Below are positions 3,613-18,492 of a stretch of 64,000 nt of DNA, piece by piece. Made by a program: the position numbers and the translations under genes. Positions within the stretch are counted from its first letter, which is position 1; each line of letters opens with the position of its first letter. Below the pieces are notes generated by a model. It did not search any database. It worked only from the letters and a program-made list of their open reading frames with translations, and was not told where the DNA came from. This stretch comes from Clostridia bacterium (GTDB lineage: Bacteria > Bacillota > Clostridia > Christensenellales > Aristaeellaceae). The stretch lies in the NCBI GenBank assembly GCA_017541105.1, contig JAFXZS010000002.1, forward strand, positions 1 to 64,000, given 5' to 3'.

Positions 3613-3647
3613 GCCCGGCCACCATTGCGGCGGTCGGGCTCATTTTC
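3613..3647. terminator. Probable terminator between convergent genes
   Basis: An imperfect stem (GCCCGGCC with GGTCGGGC, one G-T pair) is followed by a T-rich stretch. It separates the zinc-ribbon regulator from the minus-strand gene ending at 3661. Confidence 0.45.
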
Positions 3648-3660
3648 TCTTTGGCGTTTA

Positions 3661-4140: not shown

Positions 4141-4146
4141 CTTTTT

Positions 4147-4199
4147 GTGTCTCCCTTCTTTATTGTGCCTTGCGGCTTGCTGACAGCTTACGGAGACAC
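4147..4199 (-). promoter_or_regulatory. Leader hairpin that would mask the Shine-Dalgarno of copy A
   Basis: On the minus strand GTGTCTCC (4199-4192) and GGAGACAC (4154-4147) form a perfect 8-bp inverted repeat enclosing about 37 bases. The GGGAG used as ribosome binding site lies in the 3' arm. The same structure is kept at 10239-10291. Confidence 0.45.
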
Positions 4200-4247
4200 G
4201 GGTGGAAAGCAAGGCCAGACGGGAAAGAAATTTTTACGCGGCACACC

Positions 4248-4430
4248 ATGCCTGGAGAAAAAAAGATATTCTTTTATGCGGGTGATGTGTGGATGGAACA
4301 GGAAGGCCAGAAGGTGTGCGATCAGGAGCACGAAGTATTGGATATTCACCTGTTTTGCGGTGCAAAGCTACACAGGTTTTTTGCTGAAAACGGAGAACCG
4401 TGGTCAGCCATATATATCGGGGAACAATAA
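4248..4430 (+). CDS. Possible small protein (60 aa), unrecognised
   Basis: The frame from MPGEKKIFFYAGDVW to WSAIYIGEQ reads like a genuine compact protein (alternating beta and polar residues, one Cys), but there is no ribosome binding site before the ATG at 4248. It lies between two duplicated cassettes and may be the 3' remnant of a longer gene. No family is recognised. Confidence 0.3.
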   Translation: MPGEKKIFFYAGDVWMEQEGQKVCDQEHEVLDIHLFCGAKLHRFFAENGEPWSAIYIGEQ

Positions 4431-4495
4431 TACATATCCTGTGCCAGGGATCGTGAGCAGGCCATGATTGCCGGGTGGAACGAGGGCCGAAAACC

Positions 4496-4580
4496 GCGTT
4501 GAACCGGGTTTTTGGTCGGGAGGGAGCCATAAGTCCCCATATACAAGAGAAAACGCCCGGTTGGTGGGCGTTTTTCGTCA
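4496..4580. repeat. Island 3'-UTR repeat element, copy E2, with bidirectional terminator
   Basis: It begins with GCGTTGAACCGGG, continues with GGAGCCATAAGTCCCC and ends in AAAACGCCC..GGGCGTTTTT (4550-4575), a hairpin with A-run and T-run that could terminate in both directions. It is about 85% identical by eye to E3 at 12183-12267, and both lie directly downstream of paralogous minus-strand genes. Confidence 0.7.
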
Positions 4581-4583
4581 TGC

Positions 4584-4823
4584 CTAATTGGCGATCCTTC
4601 GGAGGCTGAAAAGCAATTCACTATACAGATCAGCATCAATGAAGCCGTCCTGGAGCTGCCGTTGTTCCCATGAGGTAAGGAGCGTAAGCTCCACGTCTGG
4701 CCGGTTCGTAAACCGGACTATAATCTGCCCCTGTGCCTCTAATACCTGGCAGCGCGATTCCGGCACAGCCTTTTCAATATTGTTGGCCAGGGTGGTCAGC
4801 GTCATTGGAATTCTCTCGTTCAT
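4584..4823 (-). CDS. Small island protein (79 aa), paralogue of 12265-12501
   Basis: The sequence LTTLANNIEKAVPESRCQV...VRFTNRPDVELTLLT...LLFSLRRIAN has about 60% identity to the product of 12265-12501. The family is unknown; predicted alpha/beta, cytosolic. The ATG at 4823 overlaps the stop of the 45-aa gene upstream (ATGA), indicating translational coupling. The gene ends directly at the E2 terminator. Confidence 0.65.
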   Translation of the reverse strand: MNERIPMTLTTLANNIEKAVPESRCQVLEAQGQIIVRFTNRPDVELTLLTSWEQRQLQDGFIDADLYSELLFSLRRIAN

Positions 4824-4957
4824 GCTGTCCACATCTCATATGCCTTTGCGGTATCACTGACGATATCGTTATAGTTGATGGATTCACCCAACATTTCGTT
4901 GTCGAAGTAATAGGTGATTGTTTCCAAGCACTCATCAATGAAAACGTCCTGTGGCAT
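4820..4957 (-). CDS. Short upstream gene (45 aa) coupled to the 79-aa gene
   Basis: A minus-strand frame, MPQDVFIDECLETITYYFD to TAKAYEMWTA, ends in ATGA shared with the next start. Its composition is protein-like and acidic. Its present ATG lies exactly at the junction with IS256 sequence, so it is probably the 3' part of a longer gene cut by the insertion. No family is recognised. Confidence 0.5.
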   Translation of the reverse strand: MPQDVFIDECLETITYYFDNEMLGESINYNDIVSDTAKAYEMWTA

Positions 4958-5200
4958 GGTCGTCCATCTCAGCCTCCATCATTTCCTTGATGGTGCCGCC
5001 GAGAAGATCTTTCAGGGCTTCCTGGATGTCTGCAGCAGATTGAATGTCGTACTCCTGTAGCAAACCCTGAATGATATTCCGTTTTCCTTCGGTCATGGGT
5101 CCGGGTCTGAAGACTTCTTTTTTCTTGTTCGCCATTTTAACAGGCCTCCTATGATTGAATTTATCTTATCATAGAAGGCCTGTGGCTTTCACCTATTTAC
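4958..5200 (-). mobile_element. IS256-family remnant (5' end only)
   Basis: The minus strand reads the start of an IS256/mutator transposase: an N-terminus, then LLQEYDIQSAADIQEALKDL and GGTIKEMMEAEMDDH. It breaks off after the DDH where the family continues LGYE. Upstream lies a ribosome binding site and the AT-rich terminal sequence around 5155-5200. The DDE catalytic region is missing, so it cannot move by itself. Confidence 0.75.
4961..5135 (-). pseudogene. Truncated IS256-family transposase
   Basis: Only about 58 N-terminal residues remain, from the ATG at 5135 to EAEMDDH. The reading frame then enters unrelated sequence and stops. All three acidic catalytic residues lie in the missing part. 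Confidence 0.75.
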
Positions 5201-5377
5201 AGACTTTTTTTCACAAGCTCGCGAAGAGGAGCGGAGCGAAAAAACACCCCGGGCTCTTCTATTATTTTTTCATATACTTAATTTGCCAACCAGCCTATTC
5301 TTTGGCATGCTGTTGCAGCATCAGGGTCCCCATTACAAGCGGCTCCTATCATCCAATACGAAGAATTTTTATGTGGC
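5201..5377. other. Non-coding spacer
   Basis: I see no credible gene, tandem repeat or hairpin with T-run in this AT-rich spacer between the IS256 remnant and the zinc-finger protein gene. Confidence 0.4.
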
Positions 5378-6067
5378 TTATCCCATAGGAATTGGCCTTC
5401 CATTTTTTTTGAATTCATAAGGAACTCCTATAACAAGATGTTTGCTGAGTAAAATGCGTACGGCTACACTCTCATCAGATTCATTGTCATCTTTTGCATA
5501 TTGTTTTCTAATACTCCATATTTGCCCAAGTTGTCTATAACCACTAGCAAGGTTTTCTGCCAGTTCATTTAGTACTTTTTCATAAATATCTTTTAATGGA
5601 TCAGCATATTCTAAGAAGTCACCATCTGCATACTTGTAGAGACGCCTTTTTTCTTCAGTTGACAGATATACATCAACAGTATCTTTGAAGTATTCTCGGT
5701 TGTCTCCGTAAGGAAATTCACAATTGCCTGGGGTGAAGTCTATTGGTTTTGGTTCCGGCGACTTTTTCTTTGGCGGTTCTTTCTCAAGCAACTCAGGGTG
5801 AGCTTTATACATAGCATCTAAAAGCTCTCTTGCAATATATTCTTGCCGTTGCTTATCTTCTTCGGTCATGCTCTGAAGAGCTTTTTCTTTTTTGTCACGA
5901 TAAGTAGCATCAATTTTTTTGCGCAATTCTTCCTCTCTTCGAAGCTTTTCACTTTCTTCGCGTTTTTTTCTTTGCTGCTCACTTTTTACAGCCATATAAC
6001 ATGCTTTACAATATCCAGTTTGAGAATTGAAAAGCATAAATTTATTACAACGTCTACAGTTGGTCAT
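5378..6067 (-). CDS. Zinc-ribbon, lysine/glutamate-rich protein of unknown function (229 aa)
   Basis: Cys pairs C4-x2-C7 and C20-x2-C23 (NCRRC..GYCKAC) form a probable zinc ribbon. Residues 25-95 are a highly charged helix (KREESEKLRREEELRKK), and the C-terminal 130 residues look globular (IWSIRKQYAKDDNES...LLSKHLVIGVPYEF). The start at 6067 follows AAGGGGG by seven bases. The DNA is clearly AT-rich compared with the flanking chromosome, indicating recent transfer. A nucleic-acid-binding role is plausible from the zinc ribbon but not shown. Confidence 0.75.
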   Translation of the reverse strand: MTNCRRCNKFMLFNSQTGYCKACYMAVKSEQQRKKREESEKLRREEELRKKIDATYRDKKEKALQSMTEEDKQRQEYIARELLDAMYKAHPELLEKEPPKKKSPEPKPIDFTPGNCEFPYGDNREYFKDTVDVYLSTEEKRRLYKYADGDFLEYADPLKDIYEKVLNELAENLASGYRQLGQIWSIRKQYAKDDNESDESVAVRILLSKHLVIGVPYEFKKNGRPIPMG

Positions 6068-6193
6068 AATTTAACCCCCTTATTTTCAAGAATGTATTTT
6101 CTACAGTTTAGTTAGTGGAATGAGTATAACCTGTTTCAGGTTATAAGTCAATGTGAACACTTACTGTCATCTATCATGACAACGGTGATGAAT

Positions 6194-6418
6194 ATGGCTT
6201 ATGACCGCATTCGGGAGCTTCGTGAAGACCATGACTTGCGGCAGGTGGATGTAGCAAAAATGCTGAAAATGTCGCAAACTGGTTATTCAAAATATGAAAC
6301 CGGCGAGAACGACGTTCCGACAACCATGCTTATCGCTCTCGCCAGGTTCTATCATGTGAGTGTCGACTATCTTCTTCGGCTAACGGATACCCTCGAACCC
6401 CTTACCGGCAAGGAATAA
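6194..6418 (+). CDS. Small XRE-family regulator (74 aa)
   Basis: The whole protein is an XRE helix-turn-helix (RIRELREDHDLRQVDVAKML, MSQTGYSKYETGENDVP) ending in a typical VSVDYLLRLTD tail. The ATG at 6194 is preceded by GGTGA; ATGs at 6176 and 6188 are possible alternatives. It is divergent from the zinc-ribbon gene across about 125 bp and overlaps the 3' end of the resolvase remnant on the other strand. Confidence 0.8.
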   Translation: MAYDRIRELREDHDLRQVDVAKMLKMSQTGYSKYETGENDVPTTMLIALARFYHVSVDYLLRLTDTLEPLTGKE

Positions 6419-6822
6419 CGTTTTGCTTTATCAGACGATAGAAAGTTGACTTCTTGATAGACAGCTCATTCATCGCCTGAACAGCTGTTATCTCTCCTGA
6501 CTTCCAACGGGACACCACAGAGCTGAACAGTTTCTGGTTTATTTCAATACGTGGACGGCCGCCGGTGTAGATGCCGGCGTTTTTCTGTGCGGCAATACCT
6601 TCTTGCTGTCGTATCAGTATCTGTTCACGTTCCAGCTGTGCCAGAGCAGCCAGAACACTGACAAGAAACCGTCCGGTAGGAGTGGAAGTATCAATTTTCT
6701 CCTTCAGGCTTACCAGCGCAACCTGCTTCTTCTCCAGTTCGTCCAGAATATTCAGGAAGTCTCTGGTGCTACGTGCCAACCGGGAAATGGACTCTATCAT
6801 AAAAACAATTGTTTTGCCGGCA
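6402..6822 (-). pseudogene. 5'-truncated serine recombinase (resolvase/invertase family)
   Basis: The reading frame carries the second half of a resolvase: FMIESISRLARSTRDFLN, LVSLKEKIDTSTPTGRFL and ALAQLEREQI, then GRPRIE and a Hin-like helix-turn-helix at the C-terminus. The N-terminal 65 or so residues with the catalytic serine are missing. Homology stops at GKTIVF (about 6822), where the frame meets a stop. It is inactive as a recombinase, although the DNA-binding part could still be made. Confidence 0.85.
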
Positions 6823-6915
6823 GGTATTTATGAGGCAGGTGTGGATATTCCTGTTGGGAAGTATATATTAACTGATGCGGAGCATAATAGGGGTCGGTAT
6901 GGTTTAGGAACTTGA
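6823..6915 (+). pseudogene. Fragment of a secreted-type protein
   Basis: The plus-strand frame reads PAGIYEAGVDIPVGKYILTD and ends at TGA 6913-6915. The pattern 'IYE(A/V)GxDIPxGxY' is seen in repeated domains of extracellular lipoproteins of Bacillota. No start or signal peptide is present, so it is a displaced fragment abutting the resolvase remnant. Confidence 0.45.
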
Positions 6916-6933
6916 TTAATGAGGAATAAAAAG

Positions 6934-6963
6934 TTGTCCTGGCCACCTCAGTTTTGATATACT
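6934..6963 (+). promoter_or_regulatory. Promoter before the HsdR-like remnant
   Basis: TTGTCC (6934-6939) and TATACT (6958-6963) are spaced by 18 bp. GCCACCTC (about 6941) and GAGGTGGC (about 6992) form an 8-bp inverted repeat whose 3' arm is the ribosome binding site of the remnant. The promoter may now drive the membrane-protein/K+-channel operon downstream. Confidence 0.5.
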
Positions 6964-7001
6964 ATGTGGTAAGATAGTCAGTTTTTTACAGAGGTGGCAG
7001 G

Positions 7002-7180
7002 ATGGCTTCCAACTTCGAGTTTCTGAACCGGTACTGGCCGGTGCTTTATCAGGTCGGCAGCGCGGCCGAGAGTTATCTGTTCTCGGACGCGAATGCCTGT
7101 ATCTATAAGCTCGGTATGCTGGGTGAACGGGTCGTACAGGAGATATTCCTGTACGACCATCTGCCGTTTCCGAAGTATCG
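7002..7180 (+). pseudogene. N-terminal remnant of a type I restriction (HsdR-like) gene
   Basis: The first about 57 residues (MASNFEFLNRYWPVLYQVGS, SYLFSDANACIYKLGMLGER) match the N-terminus of HsdR-like DEAD-box proteins, in which this region precedes the nuclease/helicase part. After LYDHLPFP the similarity ends. The frame then runs by chance into the next gene, so a single long reading frame is seen. Confidence 0.65.
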
Positions 7181-7223
7181 TCAGTTTTTCCATAAAACCA
7201 ATCAGGACTGTTGGAGGGGAAAC

Positions 7224-8621
7224 ATGCGTATAAAAAAAGGTTCCGAAAGGAAACCGCGGCTGAGGTGGCATGAGCGAACCGCAGACAGGGATATCCGTTA
7301 CAGAGGGCCGCTGAATTATCAGCACTTCCAGATTCTCGGCTGGCTGTGCATTGCCGCAACCCAGCTGGTATTGATTCTGGGGCTGGCGAACAGGATGGAT
7401 ATGCTTCCCGAACGATATGCCTGGCTGCAGGAACCCGCACGGATCATGAGCTGGCTGGCGCTGCCTTTTCTGCTGATCGCGAATTTTGCGCAGATCATGA
7501 ACGGAAAGAAATCCTATAAATCACTTCTGATCAAAAATTTCTGCGCTGCTGTCGCAATCTCGGCGGGTTATGCCTTTTTTCTGCATCGTTATATTGTTGG
7601 AACGGTCGATGTGTTTAATGACGGAACGGTCACCAGCCTTGATGTAGTGACCAAACTCATGATTATGCTGACTTCTTCCGGCTTGCTGAAAATCGGTTCG
7701 CCGGGTATCCTTGCGTTCAATGTGTTTGTTGACCTGTTCCTTTGCACCCTGTTGATGTTCTTCCTGAATTACAAGCCGAAGAAGATCTTTACGGGGAAAT
7801 GGCGGTATGTTTTCCGAGCTTTCGCGCTGCTGCCCATTGCCTATGAGGTCGGCTGCATTGTCCTGAAAGTCATGGCGTCCAGATTTCAGATTGAGGTATC
7901 GCCGTACCTGTATCCGCTCTTTACAGTCAAACCGACGATGACCTTTGTGCTGTTCATTATCCTCTCGTTCTATATCAAAACCCGGGAATGGCGCTTCTGC
8001 CGGCATGGGAGAACCCACGAGGAATATACTGCTTTTCTGCATACCAGAAAGAACTCCTGGGACTTTTCCCTTTTTCTTGCCGTTGCGCTGGTTGTGGTCA
8101 GCATACTGGATTTTGTGTTGTTTGCCCGAATTACGAATATGGAAATGGCCCGTATTAACGCTGAGGCTGCTGCTGCCGCGAATATCACTCCTGTTGCAAT
8201 GGTAATGGGATTCGGGGATTCCATCATGCTGTGGCTTTTGGCGCCGCTGGTTTTGCTGTTCTCCTATACGCGGGAACCGCGGAATCCGGCAATGGGAATG
8301 ATGATCCCGGTCGCCGCGATCGGAATCATTGTTCTGCTTTATCTGGAAGCCGGTCATCAGGCGCTGCCGAATCTGAATATCCCCAAGATGAACATGGAAG
8401 GATTCGTAACCGGCGAGACTGCTGAAGATGAAGCATCCGACGCAAGTCTCCTGGAATTATTGACGGCAGACCCTGCCGCGGAAGGAATGCTGACGGAAGG
8501 ACTGCCATCGGAGGATCCTCCTGCGGAAGCAGCAGCCGTAACGGAAGAGAATTCCCCGGATCACAGCCCTGCTGCCGAAAACCCGGATGAAAAAACGAAT
8601 GAGGAGGACCTTCATCCATGA
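7224..8621 (+). CDS. Polytopic membrane protein of unknown function (465 aa)
   Basis: About nine hydrophobic segments are visible (for example LGWLCIAATQLVLILGLA, FNVFVDLFLCTLLMFFL, FLAVALVVVSILDFVLF), followed by a roughly 100-residue E/A/P-rich cytosolic or extracellular tail. I placed the start at 7224 because GGAGGGG lies four bases before it; upstream in-frame codons belong to the HsdR-like remnant. The stop overlaps the next ATG (ATGA at 8618), so it is co-translated with the K+ channel and may be its partner. No family is recognised. Confidence 0.75.
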   Translation: MRIKKGSERKPRLRWHERTADRDIRYRGPLNYQHFQILGWLCIAATQLVLILGLANRMDMLPERYAWLQEPARIMSWLALPFLLIANFAQIMNGKKSYKSLLIKNFCAAVAISAGYAFFLHRYIVGTVDVFNDGTVTSLDVVTKLMIMLTSSGLLKIGSPGILAFNVFVDLFLCTLLMFFLNYKPKKIFTGKWRYVFRAFALLPIAYEVGCIVLKVMASRFQIEVSPYLYPLFTVKPTMTFVLFIILSFYIKTREWRFCRHGRTHEEYTAFLHTRKNSWDFSLFLAVALVVVSILDFVLFARITNMEMARINAEAAAAANITPVAMVMGFGDSIMLWLLAPLVLLFSYTREPRNPAMGMMIPVAAIGIIVLLYLEAGHQALPNLNIPKMNMEGFVTGETAEDEASDASLLELLTADPAAEGMLTEGLPSEDPPAEAAAVTEENSPDHSPAAENPDEKTNEEDLHP

Positions 8622-9616
8622 GCATCAGAAAAATCCGGGGCAGAGCAATCATTCTGACGGTTTTGCAGGGCCTCCTCCTGCTGGCTGTCCTTTCCGCTAT
8701 GTTTTCAGCGCTTACCAGTCTTTTTATGAGCTCGCTGATGGAAGGCGGTATAGGATCCCCTGACTCATCCGAACAGGCAACCGTTTCAGAAACACCGGCA
8801 CAGGTGAATGCTGAGGAACCGGTCCCGGAAACTGCTGAGGAAAATGCCGGCAGGGTGAAAGAGATGCTGACTGCCAGACTGGCTTCCATGAAGCCGATGG
8901 CTGCTGTCATGTGGTTTGCCTTGTCCCTGCTGTTTCTGATGATGGCTGTTACTTTGAAACATGAATGGAAGCATAATCTGTTTCGCTATGGAATCGGGGC
9001 AGCGCTTTTTTCCTGCTGCGCTGTGATCTTTCTGATTTCAGAAAATGATACTGTGTACAGAATAACCGCGATTCTTCATATGCTCGGGCTGGCCGCAGAT
9101 CACTTGTTTTCCATTGTGAATGATCATAAAGTTCGTAATGTGACTTTCCGGGTTTTCAGCGTCCTGCTGCTGGGCGTCGGACTGGCTTTTGACGGAAAGA
9201 TCGCGCTTATGGTTGTACTGGCACTGACAATTCCCCGGATTTTCTACTATATTGCCCGGATTTCTTTCTCCCAGGTAAAACTGGATGTGCTGGGCAGGAT
9301 CATTCGGAAAACATATGCGGCGGAGATCCTTTTCGGTATGCTGCTGCTGATTACAGCGTTTTCCATCGTTTTGCCGAATTTTGAATTGAATATCGACACC
9401 TTCGGTGACGCGCTCTGGTATTGTTTCGCAATCGTAACCACCATCGGATTCGGGGATATAACGGCCGTTACGATTCCCGGAAGGATTATATCTGTTATTC
9501 TGGGGCTTTACGGTCTCATTGTGGTTGCGCTGATCACATCAATTATTGTCAATTTCTACAGTGAGACAAAGAATGCCGGAGATGAAAATCCTACAGATTC
9601 CAAGAATGCAGTGTAA
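8618..9616 (+). CDS. Two-pore-helix-type K+ channel protein (Ion_trans_2)
   Basis: The C-terminal quarter has TM - pore - TM organisation with the selectivity filter TIGFGD at residues 275-280, the signature of potassium channels. Upstream there are five or more further hydrophobic segments, and residues 40-90 form an acidic extracytoplasmic loop. There is no RCK or cyclic-nucleotide domain, so gating cannot be assigned. It is expected to conduct K+ through the membrane as a tetramer and is coupled to the preceding membrane protein by a 4-bp overlap. An operon of this kind inside a mobile island is unusual. Confidence 0.85.
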   Translation: MSIRKIRGRAIILTVLQGLLLLAVLSAMFSALTSLFMSSLMEGGIGSPDSSEQATVSETPAQVNAEEPVPETAEENAGRVKEMLTARLASMKPMAAVMWFALSLLFLMMAVTLKHEWKHNLFRYGIGAALFSCCAVIFLISENDTVYRITAILHMLGLAADHLFSIVNDHKVRNVTFRVFSVLLLGVGLAFDGKIALMVVLALTIPRIFYYIARISFSQVKLDVLGRIIRKTYAAEILFGMLLLITAFSIVLPNFELNIDTFGDALWYCFAIVTTIGFGDITAVTIPGRIISVILGLYGLIVVALITSIIVNFYSETKNAGDENPTDSKNAV

Positions 9617-9714
9617 TGGATGAAAAAACTGTACAAAAGGCGAATTGTTCCGGGTTTTTGATCATTTATTGAAAGGAATCCGAGGCCTTAACCTCGGACT
9701 TTGTCGACAGTCTG

Positions 9715-9744
9715 ACCCGGCACCTTGATGCCGGGTTATTTTTT
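9715..9744 (+). terminator. Rho-independent terminator after the K+ channel operon
   Basis: ACCCGGCA/TGCCGGGT (8 bp) is followed by TA and six T. Another hairpin, CCGAGG/CCTCGG, lies 25 bp upstream without a T-run. Confidence 0.8.
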
Positions 9745-9752
9745 GTCCCTTT

Positions 9753-10232
9753 TTATTTTGCTTTGTACCCCTTGGCGGCCAGCGCGGCGATCAGGTCGGC
9801 GCTCTCCGGGCCGGTCAGTGTGCCTTCCCTGTCTACCAGGTAGTCGCCAATTTGATACCCCTGTGAAGGCATTCCGAGATACCGTGCATCAAGCCCGGTG
9901 ATCGTACTGATGACCGCCACCAGTGTTTTTCGGTCCGCTCCGGTCACTCCGTACCGCTGCTCCATCATGGCCGTAGGCTCTGATTTCACTACCCTGTGCT
10001 GCCGCTCCCGCTCTGCCGGCCAGATTTCCGGAAGGATTCCTTCTTCAAACCAGATCGTGAAGGTGATGGCCCCTCCATCCTCCGGTACATCAAACCGGAA
10101 CCCGCAGTATTCCAGGTGCTTGATCTCCGCAGGGATCTCGATGTTTTTGTAGCGCTTGACCTCCCGATCATTCACCATGAAGCATACCGGTACCGCGTCC
10201 CTCAGTTTCGCTGTCAGTTTTCCGCATTCCAT
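9753..10232 (-). CDS. Duplicated 159-aa island protein, copy B
   Basis: It is a near-identical paralogue of the product of 3661-4140, differing mainly at the C-terminus (LIAALAAKGYKAK instead of LIAELASKGFEAK) and at a few internal sites. The same start, ribosome binding site and leader hairpin are kept. It lies directly downstream, in opposite orientation, of the K+ channel terminator. The function is unknown. Confidence 0.7.
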   Translation of the reverse strand: MECGKLTAKLRDAVPVCFMVNDREVKRYKNIEIPAEIKHLEYCGFRFDVPEDGGAITFTIWFEEGILPEIWPAERERQHRVVKSEPTAMMEQRYGVTGADRKTLVAVISTITGLDARYLGMPSQGYQIGDYLVDREGTLTGPESADLIAALAAKGYKAK

Positions 10233-10238
10233 CTTTTT

Positions 10239-10291
10239 GTGTCTCCCTTCTTTATTGTGCCTTGCGGCTTGTTGACAGCTTACGGAGACAC
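10239..10291 (-). promoter_or_regulatory. Leader hairpin that would mask the Shine-Dalgarno of copy B
   Basis: The inverted repeat GTGTCTCC/GGAGACAC (10291-10284 and 10246-10239 on the minus strand) is as in copy A, again with the ribosome binding site in the 3' arm. Confidence 0.45.
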
Positions 10292-10324
10292 GGGTGGAAA
10301 GCAAGGCCAGACGGGAAAGAATTT

Positions 10325-12079
10325 TTAGATTGGGCTATTTTTGTTCGTGAAAACTATACTATCATCAAGGATTCTTTTTGCTTCCTCATAGGTTTCAACC
10401 GTATATGGGATTTCAATTAATGGGATACCAAGGGAGTTTGCATATTCCTGCTTTAGTTCATCATGTAATTGTTGTTTTTCAAACTGTTCTTCACCACCAA
10501 ATATGTTCACTGGCATATAGTGCTGTTGCCCTTGACATTCGATCAGCGCTGATAAAATACCATTCGAATACACGGCAAAATCATAAGACAACATACGCTC
10601 ACCGTAGCCACGAAGATCTTCGAATCTTTTTTGACTTTCATAATCAATTGTGTTTTCATACCCGATCTCATCAAAGTACTGTAGAACATATAGTTCATAC
10701 CTTGATTGGTGTTTGCAACCACAAGAGGTGATCATTCCCCTGCATAAATAATAACCGTCAGCAAATGTATCATTTCCACAATCACAATGACATTTCCACG
10801 TTCCTATGGAATGCCCGTTTTCATCAATTGTGTTAACACGGTCTATAACAGTCAGCATTCCAAAACGCTTCCCTTGGAGATCAATTAGCCTCCCAGTTGC
10901 ACGTTCAGCTGATTTTTCGGACTGTAAACAACCACACGACTGGGTATGACCGCTTTTGAGAACACTAGTTTGAACTACAATTGTGTTACCACAGTCACAT
11001 AAGCAAAACCAGTAATACTTAGAGTTTCCCTTACTGTCATATTCTTTATGATCTACTTTTATTGCAGTAAGACGTCCGAAATGTTGACACGATAAGTCAA
11101 TAAAACGAGATTCGGAGGTTTGGCTGTGATTCATGCAACCACAAGATATAACCTTTCCGCCTATTAAAATGTTCCGTTTATAAGATTTGACGGTTCCACA
11201 TTTACATAAACATTTCCAATATATTCCTCTACCCTTATAGGTTGTATCAATCCCAAGAACTGTTAATTGTCCAAATGTACGTCCAGTGAGATCCTCTTTT
11301 GGAATAGATTGCTGGCAGCCACATGATGTGCTAAAACCATTTCTGAGGGAAGCAGAGGAAACGCTTTTTATGTTTCCACAATCGCACTGGCAAAAAAAGT
11401 ATGAACCGTCTCCACTCTTGACAGGGTCTTTTCTAAGAACAGTCCAATGTCCGAATCGTTCTCCAATTAAGTTGTATGGCGTGTTCAGGATGCTCTGATT
11501 TCTTAAACAGCCACATGATTTTGTTTGGCCTGATTTCAATCTGCTGGCAGGTACGGAAATTTCTTTTCCACAATCGCATTGACAAATCCATTTTGCACCT
11601 GGACGGTTAGAGGTGCTTTCAAGGTCTCTCCGAAGTACTAATAATCTTCCGAATCGTTGACCAGTCAGATCGATTATTCTATTGCGGCTTTGGCAACCAC
11701 ACGATGTTGTTCTGCCATCCTTCAAGGAGTAGCCCAAAACACTCTTTATGCGACCACAGTCACATTTGCATAGCCATCGTGCACCTCGTTTTGATGTTGA
11801 TTGATCAGATAAATCCTGCTCAATAACAGTCCAATGCCCAAAGCGTCTCCCAGATAAATCTTCAACTCTTGTTTTTGTTCGTATGGATGTTTTCTTGTCT
11901 TTTTCACATCCACAAGAAACGGAGATGCCACTGCGAAGACTTGTACCCGCAACACTGCGAATTGTTCCGCAATCACATTGACAAACCCAGTAAATGTTTT
12001 TTCTTGTATTGCCTTCATCTCGATGCAGAACGGTCCAGTGTCCGAAGTGCTTCCCGGAAAGATCAATTAAAGTTCCCAT
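10325..12079 (-). CDS. Seven-zinc-ribbon array fused to a Vsr/EDxHD-like nuclease domain (584 aa)
   Basis: Seven tandem units begin at about residues 4, 74, 137, 203, 263, 328 and 400. Each has the form DL(S/T)GxxFGxxTV, then W/FxCxC(D/K)CG, then a helix and SCGC, giving four or five Cys per unit. Single units of this type precede HNH or AP2 domains in phage homing endonucleases. Residues 456-584 form a restriction-like fold: YELYVLQYFDEIGY, LSYDFAVY (D500), ALIECQGQQHY (E514, H520), QLHDELKQEYA (D540, K543) and IPLIEIPYT, which resembles Vsr/EDxHD homing nucleases. I infer a DNA-binding array with a C-terminal nuclease. The ATG at 12079 follows AAGGGGA. The gene is AT-rich, which points to transfer. 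Whether it acts in homing or in defence cannot be told from sequence. Confidence 0.8.
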   Translation of the reverse strand: MGTLIDLSGKHFGHWTVLHRDEGNTRKNIYWVCQCDCGTIRSVAGTSLRSGISVSCGCEKDKKTSIRTKTRVEDLSGRRFGHWTVIEQDLSDQSTSKRGARWLCKCDCGRIKSVLGYSLKDGRTTSCGCQSRNRIIDLTGQRFGRLLVLRRDLESTSNRPGAKWICQCDCGKEISVPASRLKSGQTKSCGCLRNQSILNTPYNLIGERFGHWTVLRKDPVKSGDGSYFFCQCDCGNIKSVSSASLRNGFSTSCGCQQSIPKEDLTGRTFGQLTVLGIDTTYKGRGIYWKCLCKCGTVKSYKRNILIGGKVISCGCMNHSQTSESRFIDLSCQHFGRLTAIKVDHKEYDSKGNSKYYWFCLCDCGNTIVVQTSVLKSGHTQSCGCLQSEKSAERATGRLIDLQGKRFGMLTVIDRVNTIDENGHSIGTWKCHCDCGNDTFADGYYLCRGMITSCGCKHQSRYELYVLQYFDEIGYENTIDYESQKRFEDLRGYGERMLSYDFAVYSNGILSALIECQGQQHYMPVNIFGGEEQFEKQQLHDELKQEYANSLGIPLIEIPYTVETYEEAKRILDDSIVFTNKNSPI

Positions 12080-12182
12080 GGTATCCCCTTAACTAACGAT
12101 CTGGAAAAGGTTACATCATGTAAAGGAGTTATGTCATGAAATAGTATAAACCATCAGATGCTTTTTGCATATTTGATTTTTT

Positions 12183-12267
12183 GCGTTGAACCGCGATCAC
12201 GGCGGCAAGGGAGCGATAAGTCCCCACATACAAGAGAAAACGCCCGGTTGGTGGGCGTTTTTCGTCA
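12183..12267. repeat. Island 3'-UTR repeat element, copy E3, with bidirectional terminator
   Basis: It shares GCGTTGAACC, the GATAAGTCCCCA segment and the AAAACGCCC..GGGCGTTTTT hairpin with E2. It lies at the 3' end of the minus-strand gene 12265-12501, overlapping its last bases. Confidence 0.7.
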
Positions 12268-12501
12268 TTGCGCGTTTGCTATCCTCCGGAGCGTGAAAAG
12301 CATTTCACTGTATTCATCGGGATCAAGGGACCCGCCCTGAAGCTCGCGCTGCTGCATTGGGGTCAGGAGCGAGAGCTCGACATCGGGCCGAGAATCAAAC
12401 CGGACAACGATTTGATTCTGTGCCGGCAGCACCTGGCAGCGTGATTCCGGCACAGCTCTTTCGATGTTGCTGGCCAGGATGGATAATGTCATCTCATTCA
12501 T
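12265..12501 (-). CDS. Small island protein (78 aa), paralogue of 4584-4823
   Basis: The sequence MTLSILASNIERAVPESRCQV...VRFDSRPDVELSLLT...MLFTLRRIANAQ parallels the product of 4584-4823. I placed the start at the ATG at 12501; the frame stays open for 41 more codons, but those cover the dispersed repeat and have no homology. The 45-aa partner gene found upstream of the other copy is absent here. The function is unknown. Confidence 0.6.
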   Translation of the reverse strand: MNEMTLSILASNIERAVPESRCQVLPAQNQIVVRFDSRPDVELSLLTPMQQRELQGGSLDPDEYSEMLFTLRRIANAQ

Positions 12502-12592
12502 TGCTAACGCTTCAGCCCGCTGCTTGCCTCGAGTGACTCGCTCACCTCGTTTTCGCCTAACGGCGAATGCCCCACTGGGGCACCTCTCGGAT

Positions 12593-12720
12593 CGCTCCCC
12601 TGCCGGGTTGCAGCGGGTCGTCAAGGCACCGTTCTGCAGGTACTAAAGGGCCGCTCCCGTTTATTTCCGGATATTTCCGGTTTTTTCCGCTTTGAAAATG
12701 TCCTATTTAAATCTTTCCGG
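12593..12720 (+). repeat. Dispersed intergenic repeat, copy 2
   Basis: This copy has the half palindrome CCGGGTTGCAGCG, then CAAGGCACC, the phased units TTATTTCCGG / ATATTTCCGG / TTTTTTCCGC and TTTGAAAATGTCCTATTT. Its left palindrome arm is degenerate. It lies inside the island, between the small minus-strand gene and the toxin-antitoxin promoter. Confidence 0.75.
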
Positions 12721-12750
12721 AAAAATCGTTAAAAACCGGCAGACCTAATC

Positions 12751-12778
12751 TTGACATGTAGACATACGATGATATAAT
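12751..12778 (+). promoter_or_regulatory. Promoter of the toxin-antitoxin operon
   Basis: A perfect TTGACA (12751-12756), a 16-bp spacer and a perfect TATAAT (12773-12778). The spacer contains an imperfect ATGTAGACAT dyad that could be the antitoxin operator. Confidence 0.8.
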
Positions 12779-12811
12779 TTTGATATATAAGACGAGGAGG
12801 ATATCTGACTT

Positions 12812-13096
12812 ATGATGACATTCCGGGAATCGATCAGGCCTTCAGCTGATCTCAGGAACCATTACAATGAGATTTCCAGGCAATGCAGAGAAAATAAAGA
12901 AGCTGTGATTGTTACAGTAAACGGTCGGGGAGATACTGTTTCCATTGCATATGAAGAATACATGAGGATGAAAGCCAGGATTGAACTGCTCGAAATACTC
13001 GCAGAGGCAGAAGAAGATGTAAAGTTCGGCAGGGTTGCTCCTGTTCAGGAAACTTTCGATGATATCAGAAAAATGCTGATGGAGGAGAAGCTGTGA
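12812..13096 (+). CDS. Phd/YefM-family antitoxin
   Basis: The N-terminus (FRESIRPSADLRNHYNEIS) and the TVNGRGDTVSIAYEEYMRM segment are typical of the Phd/YefM DNA-binding fold. The acidic C-terminal tail would wrap the toxin. The protein has 94 residues, normal for the family. GAGGAGG lies 11 bases before the ATG at 12812. It overlaps the toxin gene by four bases and probably represses the promoter just upstream. Confidence 0.88.
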   Translation: MMTFRESIRPSADLRNHYNEISRQCRENKEAVIVTVNGRGDTVSIAYEEYMRMKARIELLEILAEAEEDVKFGRVAPVQETFDDIRKMLMEEKL

Positions 13097-13410
13097 AATA
13101 CAAAGTATTACGTACTGACACAGCGGATGCCCTGATCAGAAACATTGTCTTGTATATTGCTGAGAAGTTCGGAAACGAAACGGCTTTGGAAAAACTGAAC
13201 GATCTTGAAGCATCCATTCTGGCATTGGGAGATAATCCATATATCGGAACGGAACCAAGATATACCGTTTTAAAACGACAAGGATATAAGGTTCTTATTC
13301 TGGAAAAAGATCTGGTGTTTTATAAGATTGACGATGAAAGAAAAGTAATAACTGTATATGCAGTTGTTGATCAAAGGCAGGATTATCTGAGTATTATCAG
13401 GGGCTTATGA
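13093..13410 (+). CDS. RelE/ParE-superfamily toxin
   Basis: The 105-residue product (KVLRTDTADALIRNIVLYIA, GYKVLILEKDLVFYKIDDE, VITVYAVVDQRQDY) has the compact alpha/beta layout of ParE/RelE toxins. The start is GTG at 13093, overlapping the antitoxin stop, as expected for translational coupling. Whether the target is gyrase (ParE) or mRNA on the ribosome (RelE) cannot be decided by eye. Confidence 0.88.
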   Translation: MKYKVLRTDTADALIRNIVLYIAEKFGNETALEKLNDLEASILALGDNPYIGTEPRYTVLKRQGYKVLILEKDLVFYKIDDERKVITVYAVVDQRQDYLSIIRGL

Positions 13411-13447
13411 TATTCAGAAGGAATAAAACGCAGTTATATATCGATTT

Positions 13448-13480
13448 CGGCCAAAACGCGATCAAATCGCATTTTGGCCG
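13448..13480. repeat. Long inverted repeat between toxin and hydrolase genes
   Basis: CGGCCAAAACGCGAT and ATCGCATTTTGGCCG pair over 14 of 15 positions around a three-base loop. No T-run follows, so it is not a canonical terminator; it may be a processing site or operator. Confidence 0.6.
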
Positions 13481-13518
13481 GAGAACAAAATGTGACGATA
13501 ATTTAAATGGAGTAAACA

Positions 13519-14802
13519 ATGACAGAGGAACACGAAGTTCAGCAACGCTTGGCCGAATTCGTAGGATGTGAGACAGAATACTGGGATTTTTGGGGAGCCA
13601 TTCGTATTATAAAAGATGGGAAAACCTTCTGGGAAACCAGTCGGGGTTATTCCTGCGCGGACTTTTGTGTGAAGAATACCATGGCTACCAGGTTCACCAT
13701 CGCATCGGTTACAAAGCAGTTTACGGCTTTTGCCATAATGCTCCTGTATGACAGTGGACTTTTATCTCTGGATGCGGACGCGAATACATATCTCCCGGAG
13801 GACATACAGATTCCTGCGGGGATCACTGTCCATGATCTGCTTGCCCATACCTCCGGACTGTATAACTTTTACAATTTCGAGGATGACTTCTATATCGGTG
13901 AGGACAGACTGCCCTATGACAGGAAAGCATTTCTCAGCAACTGGATTCTGAAGCAGCCGATGAATACCCCGGGAGAAGCATTCAATTACAACAATTCGAA
14001 CTACAATCTGCTGGCATGGATCATTGAACACGTTTCAAAGCAATCCTATGCGGAGTTCCTGCGTGGGAACATATTCCTTCCTCTTGGAATGGTCAATACC
14101 GTATTTGATGACGGTCTGGCTGTCCTGGAAAACAAAGCCAACAATTATATGCATGATTACGGAGAAACGGTTCATGTGCCGTATGTCAACAACCTGTTCC
14201 TGATGGGAGCCGGAGCACTGGTTTCGAACTGTGACGACCTGCAGAAGTGGTATGAGTGCCTGAAGCAAAGAAAGCTGCTGTCCGCACCGACGTATAAAAG
14301 GTTCTTTACTGAAAACATGAACCATTACTGTTACGGGCTGGAACGGCATGACCGGAACGGCGTAACGATGTATGCCCACGGCGGTGACGCCAACGGGATT
14401 GCGGCCTATACGCAGTATTTTTTTGAAGACGATCTCTGCATTATCATTCTTTCCAACAATGAATCGCTGAACCAATACCGTCTGGGGGAAGGTATTGCTG
14501 GCATCCTGTACGGAAAAGAACCGAAATGCGCCATGAAACCGGAAGAGGTACCAGTTTCGGATGAGGATCTCCGGAGGTTCACCGGTACGTATCTTCCCGG
14601 AAAAATCCACATGGAAGTGAAGAGCGGAAAACTGTACCTGGTGCGTGTAAACCAGAATATTCATATTGAACTATACTGCATTAGCCCCAATACGTTTATC
14701 CGCAGGCATGAAGAGCAGAGCTATACGCATGAGTTGCTGCCGGATGGTTCTGAAAAACCAGCCGTGTGGGGGTATGAACTGATCAGTAAAGCATTTGTAT
14801 AA
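13519..14802 (+). CDS. Serine beta-lactamase-fold hydrolase (class C-like, PF00144)
   Basis: The catalytic motifs are present: SxxK as ASVTKQ (S63, K66), YxN as Y157-N-N159, and HGG at 287-289. There is a C-terminal extension of about 80 residues with beta-strand character, as in esterase-like members. There is no signal peptide, so it is probably cytosolic and more likely an esterase or peptidase than a beta-lactamase. GGAG lies upstream of the ATG at 13519. It is the last gene of the island and is transcribed toward the right tRNA repeat. Confidence 0.88.
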   Translation: MTEEHEVQQRLAEFVGCETEYWDFWGAIRIIKDGKTFWETSRGYSCADFCVKNTMATRFTIASVTKQFTAFAIMLLYDSGLLSLDADANTYLPEDIQIPAGITVHDLLAHTSGLYNFYNFEDDFYIGEDRLPYDRKAFLSNWILKQPMNTPGEAFNYNNSNYNLLAWIIEHVSKQSYAEFLRGNIFLPLGMVNTVFDDGLAVLENKANNYMHDYGETVHVPYVNNLFLMGAGALVSNCDDLQKWYECLKQRKLLSAPTYKRFFTENMNHYCYGLERHDRNGVTMYAHGGDANGIAAYTQYFFEDDLCIIILSNNESLNQYRLGEGIAGILYGKEPKCAMKPEEVPVSDEDLRRFTGTYLPGKIHMEVKSGKLYLVRVNQNIHIELYCISPNTFIRRHEEQSYTHELLPDGSEKPAVWGYELISKAFV

Positions 14803-14831
14803 CCGCTGGAGAAGTATCAATGGGAAAAACT

Positions 14832-15010
14832 ATGCTGCAACCCGAGCGGTTGCAATGGACGGTTGAACCTGCGAAATGCCAAATGTCCACTTAAAAATCG
14901 TTTGGAAATACGCGGAAATACCGGGAGACAGGCGGAAAAAACCGGCAAAAACGGGCGTTGACGGCAAATTCCGGAAGGAAGCGGAAATAACCGGAAAAAC
15001 CGACCAAATC
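14832..15010. repeat. Dispersed repeat, rearranged copy 4, with 10-bp phased A-tracts
   Basis: The palindrome GCAACCCGAGCGGTTGC is followed by AAATGTCCACTT and then by ten consecutive 10-bp units of the type GGAAATACGC / GGAAATACCG / GGAAAAAACC (14904-15003). Units are phased to the helical repeat, so curved DNA is expected. It ends directly at the right copy of the tRNA-Pro repeat. The A-rich strand is on top here, while the other copies have T-rich units. Confidence 0.7.
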
Positions 15011-15062
15011 TTTGGTTCGGGACCAAAAGGCCGCGGGTTCGAATCCCGCCACTTCGACTCCC
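15011..15062 (+). repeat. Right copy of 52-bp tRNA-Pro direct repeat (attR-like)
   Basis: This copy is identical to 1995-2046 and contains the anticodon arm, T-arm and 3' acceptor half of tRNA-Pro, but no 5' half, so it cannot make a tRNA. A hairpin (CCCCGGGA/TCCCGGGG) follows, as after the intact tRNA gene. It marks the right end of the island. Confidence 0.8.
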
Positions 15063-15121
15063 CGGGACATTGTAAATCAATGCTCCCGGGGTTGTAAGCG
15101 TCAAAGCTGAGACGCCCTAGC

Positions 15122-16696
15122 TCAGCCTTTCTTGGCAATCCTGCATTCGGCCGGTGCATTCATCGGTAGCAGGATTTTTACTTGCTCAGCATCTTTCATA
15201 TTTCTCATCGGGGCAGTTTTCAGCACCCAAGTCAGATACCGGTACGGATCAAGGTTATTGGCCTTTGCGGTTTCAATCAGGCTGAAATAAACCGAGCTTG
15301 CCCGGGCTCCGCTGGGTGTATTCGCAAACAGGAAATTCTTCCTGCCAATCACAAAAACCTTGGCACAACGCTCAGCCCGGTTGTTGCTGGCTTCCAGCCG
15401 CCCATCTTCCAGATATCCAATCAGCCATGGCCACTGTTCACGCGTGTAGTGGGCTGCTTTCCCCAACAGGGATTTTGGTGCTGCATTCAGCCGGAACACC
15501 CAGTCATGCAATTCATTCAGAATAGGCCTGGCAAGTTCATCCCGCTTCTGTTTCCGCTCTTCAGAAGAAAGATCCTTAATTTGTTCTTCAATATGGAAGA
15601 GCGCGTCAAAATACCTGACACCGCGCATTGCTGCGGAGTCTTTTCGTTCTTCTTCCCTTAAGCCGACCAAGGCTTCATCGAATTTTCGTCGTGCATGAGC
15701 CAGGCACCCAACCACCCGAATCTCTCCCGGCAATTTGTGGTATCCGGCATACCCGTCGGTGTGGAGGAACCCTCGGTACCCTTTCAGAAAGTCTTCCGGA
15801 TGTTCAGCACTCCTGGTCTCCTGGTAATCATATATGACCAACTGCTGTGCTGCTGCCTGCCCGGTCAGGTAGATCCACATATAGCTCTTGGTTTGAGCTT
15901 TACGCCCCGGTTCGTTAAGCACCTGCAGCGTTGTCTCATCCGCATGGAGAATGTCTTCGTTCAGCATTTCAAGCCGTATTTGTTCCCACAGGGGATTCAG
16001 CCATAACTCTGCGGCTTTGAGCAGCCAGTTTGACATCGTCTGCCGAGAAAGCGGTATTCCTATCCATTTGCAATGCTGCTCTATCCGGTATAACGGAGAA
16101 TGCATCACAAACTTTTCAAAAGCCAGATACGCAATAGCTTCCGCCTCGGCATTACTTCCCGGAATAACTGCCGGATCTGCTTTACCACTGACAACAGGTG
16201 TGCTCACTCCGGTATCCTGACAGTTTTTGCAGGCATATCGGCGCAGATGAGTTTCAACAACCACAAACTTCGCCGGAACAATCTTCAGTCGGCGGATAAC
16301 GTCTTCCCCGATATACTGCATCTCGCTTCCGCATTCAGGGCAGACTTTTTCTTCCCCGGAAACGTCCCGGATCACAACTTCCGTTTCAATATCTTCCGGC
16401 AAATCACATTCACGCGTAATATGGCGCTTCTGCCGTTTGTGTTCCTTGACCGTTTCAAGTTCCGGTTCCTTTACAGAAATAGAAGAATCAGCGTACACCT
16501 CTGCCTCGTTGAACAGGAAGCTGAGTTGTTCGCTGCCGTCGTCATATTTGCTTTGTTCACTGGAAGACCCGAAACGCTGTCTGCGTGCAAGGACAATCTG
16601 CTGCGTGAGAATCTCCACTTGCTTCGTCAGCTCTTCATTGGCCTTCAGCAAGCCCTCATATTCAGCTCTGGAGATGGTCACTGTTTCATTATTCAA
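15122..16696 (-). CDS. tnpC: IS66 transposase TnpC
   Basis: This is a DDE transposase of 524 residues. It has an N-terminal coiled coil with RQRFGSSSEQSK, a zinc-finger segment CPECGSEM..CKNC, catalytic Asp in HADETT and HTDGYAGY, and the C-terminal SNNRAER with the catalytic Glu. I prefer a TTG start at 16696 preceded by GGGAGAAAG; an ATG at 16756 in the same frame has no ribosome binding site. The stop is eight bases from the left inverted repeat. Confidence 0.95.
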   Translation of the reverse strand: MNNETVTISRAEYEGLLKANEELTKQVEILTQQIVLARRQRFGSSSEQSKYDDGSEQLSFLFNEAEVYADSSISVKEPELETVKEHKRQKRHITRECDLPEDIETEVVIRDVSGEEKVCPECGSEMQYIGEDVIRRLKIVPAKFVVVETHLRRYACKNCQDTGVSTPVVSGKADPAVIPGSNAEAEAIAYLAFEKFVMHSPLYRIEQHCKWIGIPLSRQTMSNWLLKAAELWLNPLWEQIRLEMLNEDILHADETTLQVLNEPGRKAQTKSYMWIYLTGQAAAQQLVIYDYQETRSAEHPEDFLKGYRGFLHTDGYAGYHKLPGEIRVVGCLAHARRKFDEALVGLREEERKDSAAMRGVRYFDALFHIEEQIKDLSSEERKQKRDELARPILNELHDWVFRLNAAPKSLLGKAAHYTREQWPWLIGYLEDGRLEASNNRAERCAKVFVIGRKNFLFANTPSGARASSVYFSLIETAKANNLDPYRYLTWVLKTAPMRNMKDAEQVKILLPMNAPAECRIAKKG

Positions 16697-16799
16697 GGCG
16701 CTTTCTCCCTTGCTTTTCGCTATGGAAATTATACCACATTTTCGCATAAATAGCAAGGCGAAACGCTAGTAATATCAAGGCTCGCAGCCGTTTTTGGCG

Positions 16800-17153
16800 T
16801 CAGTAAAGAAGTTGCTTCTGAATGGGTTGAATTACTTTTTTCTGGTAGATGTTTAAACCTTCCATGAGCCAGCGGAACTGCTGCATGGTTAGCTCTTTCA
16901 GTTCTATTTCATTCCTCGGCCACTGATATCGCCCGGTTTCCAGACGTTTATACAGAAGAATGTATCCGTCCTCATCCCAGAAAAGTGCTTTTATCCGGTC
17001 AGATCGCCTTCCGCAGAACATGAACAGCGTGCTGGTCTGGGGATTCATATGGAAAGTGTTCTGTACCAGAGTCACAAACCCATCAATTCCCTGGCGAAGA
17101 TCGGTGTAGCCCACCGCAATAAAGATCCTCTGAGCTCTGCTTAAGTCAAACAT
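16800..17153 (-). CDS. tnpB: IS66 accessory protein TnpB
   Basis: The 117-residue protein carries the family hallmarks VGYTDLRQGIDGF, MFCGRRSDRIKALFWDEDG and YKRLETGRYQWP. It is required with TnpA and TnpC for IS66 transposition. Its start overlaps the tnpA stop by eight bases. Confidence 0.95.
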   Translation of the reverse strand: MFDLSRAQRIFIAVGYTDLRQGIDGFVTLVQNTFHMNPQTSTLFMFCGRRSDRIKALFWDEDGYILLYKRLETGRYQWPRNEIELKELTMQQFRWLMEGLNIYQKKVIQPIQKQLLY

Positions 17154-17517
17154 TGTTATTCACCGCCTCAAGGATCCGGCATAGAAGCATGGGATCTACC
17201 GAGTTCCGGATTTCCAGCGTCCAGTCTCCACGATGCAGAACAACATCTGCATCTCCACTCACTACAGGACCGGATGGCATCCTGATTTCAGCAAACTGTA
17301 CTGTCGACGGTAAATCCGGAGGCCGGTCCGGCACCATGGTGTTGATTTCATGATCCCAGACCTGTTTCTGCCAGTAGAAATATGTTTTCTTATTGATATG
17401 ATTCTGCTGGCACCATTCAGCTACCGTCAGGCCGCTGGTTTTGCATTCCATGACCCGCTGCCGCCAGACATTGATCATGGATTCGTGTTTCGCCATGATC
17501 ATATTAATGTTGCCCAT
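17146..17517 (-). CDS. tnpA: IS66 accessory protein TnpA
   Basis: The product has a helix-turn-helix-like segment (RVMECKTSGLTVAEWCQQNHI, INKKTYFYWQK) typical of IS66 OrfA and a variable C-terminus. The ATG at 17517 is preceded by AGGACTGG; an ATG three codons into the ORF from 17550 lacks such a site. It is the first gene of the element. Confidence 0.9.
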   Translation of the reverse strand: MGNINMIMAKHESMINVWRQRVMECKTSGLTVAEWCQQNHINKKTYFYWQKQVWDHEINTMVPDRPPDLPSTVQFAEIRMPSGPVVSGDADVVLHRGDWTLEIRNSVDPMLLCRILEAVNNNV

Positions 17518-17673
17518 TTGATCCAGTCCTCTCCAACCGAATCCAACCAAGTCTTTGGTTCTCCCAAGACTGATATGGTTACGATTAGACTACCAGATCA
17601 AACGGGCAATGCACAGTTGTCTCAGCTTTGACGCTTACCCGGGGTTTTGCTTTTTCCCGGCAATTGTGGTATT

Positions 17674-17803
17674 TTTCCGTTTTGCAACCTTCCAGGTTGC
17701 AACGAAGCGGCAAGGCATCTTGCTGCAGACTTGAAAATGCTTTTTCCGTAAATTTCCGGAAATGACCGGTTTTTTCCGCTTTGAAAATGTCCACTTTGAA
17801 ATT
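17674..17803 (+). repeat. Dispersed intergenic repeat, copy 3
   Basis: This copy has the palindrome GCAACCTTCCAGGTTGC, then GCGGCAAGGCATC, phased TTTCCG units and TTTGAAAATGTCCACTTT. When the IS66 is removed, its position after the tRNA repeat and hairpin mirrors copy 1 after the intact tRNA-Pro gene. Confidence 0.75.
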
Positions 17804-17825
17804 TCTCGTTACAATTCCTGGCAGA

Positions 17826-17854
17826 TGGACAATTTGTTTTTGGTTTGTTAAATT
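17826..17854 (+). promoter_or_regulatory. Promoter of the WYL-type regulator gene
   Basis: TGGACA (17826-17831), a 17-bp spacer and TAAATT (17849-17854). The ATG at 17860 lies only five bases beyond the -10 box, so the mRNA may be leaderless. Confidence 0.5.
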
Positions 17855-17859
17855 AATAC

Positions 17860-18492
17860 ATGCACAAAATCAATAAGGGAGATGTTCTTATTTCGGCTTA
17901 TCAAAGAATGATTTGGTTTCACAATAGAGTTGTGGAGAATGCATATCCGAATGCCGGAACTCTGGCGGAACAATTTGAGATTTCTAACAGGCAGGCACAG
18001 CGGGATATTGAATATATGAGGAATTCCATGAACGCACCGCTTCTGTATTGTGCGCGGAAACGAGGATATCTGTATGAAAAAGAGTATGTGTTGCCGAGTT
18101 TCTTTCTGTCGGAAAGTGAGAAGGAGACAGTACGGTTGCTGGCAAAGCAGAGTAAGGAATTAAGTTCCTTTGGGTACGGAAAGTATGAGGGACAGGCTGA
18201 GATTTTGTCTAAGATATCTGCAGAGTCAGGGACTGGTGAGGATGAAAGCGGTATAACAAGAGAACCGTACTTTGCGGAAATTGAGATGTTGGGTGGAAGA
18301 GCATCGGTAGCATCGTTGGAATATTTTCTTTGTGGGAAGGTGGAAGGACACACCTATACCTATGCGTTTTTTGATCCGGATGTTTTTATCAGCGTTTTGA
18401 TTGCCAGCGGTTTGGAATTTCGTATTATAAAACCAAATTGGTTAAGAGAGTATATGAAAGAAAAACTTTCCGGAATTTTAAAATTGCTATGA
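17860..18492 (+). CDS. DeoR/WYL-type transcriptional regulator (210 aa)
   Basis: The N-terminal helix-turn-helix (AGTLAEQFEISNRQAQRDIEYMR) is of the DeoR/YafY type. The C-terminal part (YAFFDPDVFISVLIASGLEF, EKLSGILKLL) matches the end of WYL regulators, but the protein is shorter than the usual 300 residues, with most of the WYL core replaced by a spacer. No ribosome binding site precedes the ATG. It precedes the BtrH_N-like gene, whose putative operator overlaps this stop codon, so it likely controls that gene. Confidence 0.75.
   Translation: MHKINKGDVLISAYQRMIWFHNRVVENAYPNAGTLAEQFEISNRQAQRDIEYMRNSMNAPLLYCARKRGYLYEKEYVLPSFFLSESEKETVRLLAKQSKELSSFGYGKYEGQAEILSKISAESGTGEDESGITREPYFAEIEMLGGRASVASLEYFLCGKVEGHTYTYAFFDPDVFISVLIASGLEFRIIKPNWLREYMKEKLSGILKLL

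Follow-up and report, generated by a model that had tools for sequence, protein, structure and literature searches.

Why should a member of the Clostridia (family Aristaeellaceae; assembly GCA_017541105.1) carry in its chromosome a gene in which seven tandem zinc ribbons are joined to a nuclease domain? The window that we analysed is the first 64,000 nucleotides of contig JAFXZS010000002.1, and the gene lies in it as a single intact ORF on the reverse strand (10325–12079; 584 amino acids, ATG start), recognised from the ORF call and from matches to PHROG profiles as seven zinc ribbons followed by a Vsr-like/EDxHD-type nuclease. AAGGGG at 12085–12090 (reverse strand), 6–11 nt upstream of the ATG in the printed sequence, is its likely ribosome-binding site. 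The gene had been described as AT-rich in an initial annotation made from the DNA letters, and this is borne out by its GC content of 40.3%, against 55.5% for positions 18001–64000. The answer that we favour, and consider reasonably probable, is that it is a mobile, free-standing gene for a homing-type endonuclease, Vsr-like/EDxHD in kind and equipped with a long array of presumed DNA-binding modules, a mechanism that we infer from the lines of evidence set out below.

The seven zinc-ribbon units of the initial annotation were readily confirmed: there are seven sets of motifs, and PHROG 374 matches the protein in seven stretches (E = 6.9e-114), which rules out a chance origin of the repeats. 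They start at residues 4, 72, 135, 201, 261, 326 and 398, with 68, 63, 66, 60, 65 and 72 residues between successive FG motifs. On the reverse strand, the motif positions place repeat 1 (residues 4–71) at 11867–12070, repeat 2 (72–134) at 11678–11866, repeat 3 (135–200) at 11480–11677, repeat 4 (201–260) at 11300–11479, repeat 5 (261–325) at 11105–11299, repeat 6 (326–397) at 10889–11104 and repeat 7 (398–456, delimited also by the pairing of modules considered later) at 10712–10888. The motif string attributed to every unit held only in part: CxCxCG and SCGC are present in all seven, but CKCG replaces CDCG in repeat 5, and DL(S/T)GxxFGxxTV is slightly altered in repeats 3, 4, 6 and 7. No Pfam family scored above its cut-off anywhere in the window protein, nor did any NCBIfam model, and no Pfam model for the module did so in the eight relatives that were scanned whole; CapR was matched in one of 36 scanned sequences (E = 7.6e-5, at a stretch that was not located). 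Profile matches to phage records indicate that the module is common in phages. By analogy with other arrays of this general kind, the zinc modules likely grip DNA.

The C-terminal domain (residues 457–584; 10328–10711, reverse strand), delimited by alignment and by PHROG 9084, contains E462, D500, E514, Q516, H520, D540 and K543. An initial profile was made from nine sequences, and a later alignment comprised 87, the window protein included, all chosen by similarity. D500, G517, H520, D540 and K543 are invariant in all 87, and E514 and Q519 are present in 86 and E462 in 76, so that the five residues singled out in the initial annotation (D500, E514, H520, D540 and K543) are indeed among those most strictly kept; position 516 is Q in 54 sequences, D in 26, N in six and H in one. 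PHROG 9084 (‘homing endonuclease’) matched the domain with E = 1.1e-25 when the window protein was the query and 3.7e-27 when the domain was, PHROG 7140 (‘intron encoded nuclease’) matched it at 9.6e-14, and hhalign of the 87-row alignment against the ‘group I intron protein’ of phage Stau2 gave a probability of 99.9 (E = 2e-36); together, these support the earlier assignment to a homing-type nuclease family. Counting against it, PHROG 559, labelled HNH endonuclease, matches the domain too (5.8e-27), and PHROGs 9084, 559, 4538 and 7140 are each matched by all 87 aligned members, which had been chosen by similarity. An HNH nuclease, as the labels of PHROGs 374 and 559 would have it, was rejected, since neither Pfam nor NCBIfam gave an HNH model at E values up to 1 and the conserved residues are Vsr-like. 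DUF2726, DUF559 and the EDxHD enzymes are all counted in the PD-(D/E)XK/Vsr-like group. At E = 0.01, DUF2726 was matched by 43 of the 87 sequences and DUF559 by two, the window sequence being matched by neither (DUF2726 gave 0.28 only, under its cut-off); solved structures, searched by sequence, yielded no significant match (best E values 0.94, 0.24, 0.66 and 0.11). The domain is best read as a Vsr-like nuclease of the EDxHD type within the PD-(D/E)XK superfamily, its fold being predicted from these conserved residues and profile matches.

How constant is the number of zinc ribbons on this nuclease? Relatives sharing this nuclease domain were drawn from viral contigs, from a single scan covering 84,980 species genomes and from samples at the level of order (396 genomes), class (391) and phylum (398), in which 10, 17 and 31 genomes, respectively, gave matches, the source genome included. 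The sets were chosen by similarity, as the best 80 of at least 511 relatives in viral contigs and the best 80 of 214 in genomes. The search for homologues with different repeat numbers found them in plenty, and a fixed number is ruled out: 141 non-redundant nuclease ORFs (from loci collected before the samples at class and phylum level were added, after removal of near-duplicates and of ORFs with short nuclease matches, and with the window gene included) had no detected repeat in 85 cases, one in 20, two in 13, three in nine, four in five, five in six and seven in three, the first class including proteins with different modules, because the repeat model misses other types of zinc module. One more gene with five repeats (L315) came from the samples of class and phylum, more than five being found there only in the window gene itself, and no nuclease ORF scanned had more than seven. 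With relatives carrying anything from none to seven modules, the window gene therefore appears to be of a known kind, if unusually long for it. In a nuclease-domain tree of 72 rows (short matches and near-duplicates dropped, zero-repeat rows taken only from 11 chosen loci, giving 12 rows), repeat number changed at least 24 times, and there were at least six changes between ‘four or more’ and ‘fewer’ repeats; these counts are rough, because the columns are few, 37 of 69 inner branches are open and the tree omits most zero-repeat rows. An 18-row clade (L178–L209; SH-aLRT 99) comprises nucleases from Lachnospiraceae, Bacillaceae and other Bacillota; a single zinc ribbon was detected in 16 of its rows and none in the other two, most zero-repeat rows having been omitted from the tree beforehand. 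Elsewhere, a single contig (G660:C171) has four different zinc-ribbon nuclease genes (L310, L312, L313 and L298, with three, three, three and four repeats) in about 24 kb (21548–45165).

The other two genes with seven repeats are L165, from a Lachnospiraceae metagenome-assembled genome (MAG), and L167, from an Oscillospiraceae MAG; the three are mutually 59–61% identical. Together with one gene having five repeats, L166 from a Clostridia MAG, these are the closest to the window protein, at 61–62% identity (62% for L166). (In L167, at 2577–2804 beside recG, there is a frameshift in repeat 1, which may reflect either a decaying copy or a sequencing error.) By best-match pairing, the five modules of L166 correspond to modules 1, 2, 5, 6 and 7 of the window protein, and modules 3 and 4 are without counterpart. 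Modules within the window protein are 33–51% identical to each other, whereas same-position modules are 52–77% identical to those of L165 and 38–82% to those of L167, the first module of which is partial. The best match is the same-position module everywhere except for module 4 against L167, which has the lowest identity of all modules (about 38–41%); for module 3 against L165 the choice was close (56% to its module 3, 55% to its module 1). A recent tandem duplication or a homogenised array is ruled out by this difference between the identities within the protein (33–51%) and those at the same position in orthologues (52–82%, leaving aside module 4 against L167). Of the claim that the units differ among themselves, what is supported is that modules vary as whole units, as the pairing with L166 shows, and that orthologous positions stay alike. 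Domain order, nuclease family, variable module number and these whole-module differences are all directly observed.

Over the whole alignment of the seven-repeat genes, silent sites are saturated (pS 0.76–0.86) and dN is 0.34–0.38, single modules varying in silent divergence (dS is 1.1 for module 5 against L165). Silent sites being saturated and module-specific residues being nevertheless kept, selection must therefore have acted on the modules, and from these sequence comparisons it is purifying. In the comparison with L165 dN is highest for module 3 (0.52), and in that with L167 for module 4 (0.50); these are the two modules that have no counterpart in L166. In the five-repeat group, dN/dS was 0.09–0.17 over seven pairs; a value near 0.1 would also fit a gene useful to its host.

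The gene lies in a 13-kb stretch bounded by exact 52-nt repeats, as established by sequence comparison: the left one (1995–2046, forward strand) contains the 3′ portion of tRNA-Pro and 4 further nt, and the right one (15011–15062, forward strand) is its exact copy, so that the tRNA-linked island of the initial annotation is real. The island contains a truncated resolvase (6402–6800, the only recombinase recognised inside it among the ORFs scanned), a toxin–antitoxin pair and other cargo, and an IS66 transposase gene lies immediately outside the right repeat. Two further features of this part of the window may be mentioned. A 63-nt tandem repeat, with eleven copies in register, occupies positions 9–938, near tRNA genes, and overlaps a coiled-coil-like ORF (234–1784). 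A repeated element, about 118 nt long and containing TTTCCGG motifs, is present at 12599–12716, 2119–2236 and 17688–17805, with matches in several congeners.

Within the island, the nuclease gene is flanked on its 3′ side by a block (9742–10326, reverse strand) that includes a gene for a 159-amino-acid ‘MECGK’ protein and has an 89% identical copy at 3650–4234, and on its 5′ side by a block (12178–12482, reverse strand) of which positions 12178–12261 are matched in the congener G019 and 12183–12482 are copied at 4496–4795 (76%). In G019 the flanking blocks are 14 nt apart, and in the source genome they are separated by the 1859 nt (10319–12177, reverse strand) that hold the nuclease gene; a site occupied here is therefore empty in a congener, which strengthens the reading of the gene as mobile. 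The second flanking unit of the source genome (3650–4234 and 4496–4795) encloses 261 other nt, without a nuclease gene, and homing into the paralogous unit is accordingly not seen. L167 provides a second instance: it stands alone between recG and argS (genes named, as elsewhere here, by reading their sequences), and the matching flanks are 78 nt apart in G487, against 2103 in the carrier. Other relatives have other lengths at the recG–argS spot (about 1.2 kb of other sequence in G478, for example), and it is therefore a variable one. L168 adjoins secA. Purifying selection on modules, the different chromosomal locations and the two empty sites are matters of direct observation. No shared motif emerged at the empty sites of the two seven-repeat genes (68 of 100 shuffles scored equal or higher), and no Rfam intron was found in positions 1500–18000 of the window up to E = 1; both results weigh against the favoured reading. 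Homing genes that are free-standing need not, however, be housed in an intron or intein. The 12 genomes reached via L165–L175 and L194 have one nuclease-end match each, and three of them (G466, G469 and G474) have zinc-ribbon matches on further contigs.

How might such a gene spread? In the mechanism that we propose, the seven zinc-held modules would be strung like beads over a long stretch of target DNA, cleavage by the Vsr-like domain at the C-terminus would follow, and repair from a gene-bearing copy would insert the nuclease gene. The binding of DNA by the modules is suggested by analogy with the arrays of T5orf172 enzymes (PMC10448857) and with the EDxHD enzymes (PMC3943268); cleavage, the position of the target and the repair-driven spread of the window gene would follow from its likeness to homing nucleases. 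It is tempting to go further and to suppose that every CxCDCG/SCGC module recognises a short DNA segment of its own, following a code that could be deciphered, which we think unlikely. If it were so, arrays of one to seven modules on one nuclease would be a natural counterpart of engineered zinc-finger nucleases, and new targets could evolve by the addition or dropping of modules.

Could the gene instead be a passenger, carried by the tRNA-site island and by dispersed, recombining gene blocks, and no longer homing itself? Its position between two copies of the 52-nt tRNA-Pro stretch would be expected of such cargo, as would the behaviour of the 3′ flanking block, which is preceded by sequences that vary from copy to copy. 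Most copies of the MECGK gene in this block share a conserved leader some 90 nt long; besides two close copies, the source genome contains a third at 41%, further copies being L058, L059 and L060, and the product has no Pfam match. It may be a small mobile cassette. Also in keeping with passive carriage, the five-repeat loci L171–L174 have a stretch of about 2.4 kb in common despite flanks that otherwise differ, and within it in L173 and L174 a gene for a Cro/CI-like regulator (by sequence reading) lies directly upstream of the nuclease gene. Yet L167 stands alone between recG and argS, and the modules are under purifying selection, which leaves the passenger interpretation doubtful.

A nuclease that defends its host by cutting a conserved sequence of phages or other invading elements would be at home in a chromosomal island, near a toxin–antitoxin pair, and would account for the low dN/dS of the five-repeat relatives. 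Against this, the window protein, which alone was scanned, matched none of the PADLOC families, so that no known defence gene is recognised and the anti-element role entertained in the initial annotation finds no support; moreover, relatives are common in phages themselves, the full window protein being matched by 455 of 50,697 phage records at 1e-5 and the nuclease domain by 380 of them at 0.01. We consider defence distinctly unlikely. Least probable is a domesticated host protein of repair or regulation that keeps the nuclease fold, for although low dN/dS and position-specific conservation of modules would suit it, the distribution is very patchy, with different loci in relatives and a full-length gene only in the source genome among 150 relatives searched (source genome included), where the matches of 14 others all ended at or before query residue 464 and therefore showed no nuclease domain in that search.

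We return to the mobile homing-type endonuclease as the preferred reading. What is new in it? Modular zinc-finger arrays on homing nucleases are already published (PMC10448857), and the unusualness claimed for the window gene was to that extent overstated. As far as the literature searched goes, a family borne on Bacillota chromosomes, in which a Vsr-like nuclease carries as many as seven Pfam-unmatched zinc ribbons, appears to be new, as do whole-module differences between close relatives of that nuclease family; titles and abstracts in that literature, whose coverage excluded most subscription papers, included no report of a seven-module array of the same kind. The family amounts to a natural experiment, in which nearly the same nuclease is found with five or seven modules and two members have known empty sites, and it makes directly testable both the relation between module number and target length and the existence of a zinc-ribbon DNA code.

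Among known systems, the nuclease domain is shared most clearly with the phage nucleases of PHROGs 9084 and 7140, in which the same C-terminal domain is preceded by repeated cysteine-bearing modules. In phages Stau2 (ORF13), BSP12 (BSP12_042) and iF6 (iF6_76) it ends proteins encoded between terminase fragments; these three genes lie inside split terminase genes, whereas the window gene stands by itself in a chromosome and has seven modules. The three phage proteins have, by reading, about three modules of a different type from the window's zinc ribbon, no copy of which was found in them with the repeat model; Pfam scans of two of them recognised DUF4379 and CapR in the Stau2 protein and neither in that of iF6. 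At gathering score, Rfam recognised no intron in any of these three phage loci, and their intron state accordingly rests on annotation and on the split gene.

The EDxHD enzyme I-Bth0305I probably resembles the window protein in its conserved E, D, H and D, the letters of EDxHD being presumably those of the conserved residues described above. It differs in that no Rfam intron was found at the window gene. According to a review of EDxHD enzymes, its nuclease is tethered to a long multi-domain DNA-binding part, and its target is nearly 60 bp (PMC3943268). The closest parallel to the array as such is in the homing endonucleases of the T5orf172 type, which have zinc-finger arrays of the CapR/DUF723/DUF4379 type arranged as beads on a string, variable in number and recombining (PMC10448857), a legend there showing repeat domains 1–6 for the homing genes of phage Helene. 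They differ from the window protein in both nuclease and zinc module, and are described in phages.

The T5orf172 nuclease is of the GIY-YIG type. The zinc-ribbon module itself recurs in the ‘HNH endonuclease’ and AP2-domain proteins of PHROG 374, in one to three copies in the ORFs listed; several of these ORFs have, by reading, HNH- or AP2-like C-termini, in contrast to the Vsr-like nuclease of the window protein. Nearest of all are L165–L174, from Lachnospiraceae, Oscillospiraceae, Clostridia and Clostridium MAGs and Neobacillus sp. SuZ13, which are at other chromosomal sites (a single 29-nt match being all that is shared with the window flank) and which belong to the same family as the window protein, being 42–62% identical to it and having five repeats in eight of the ten.
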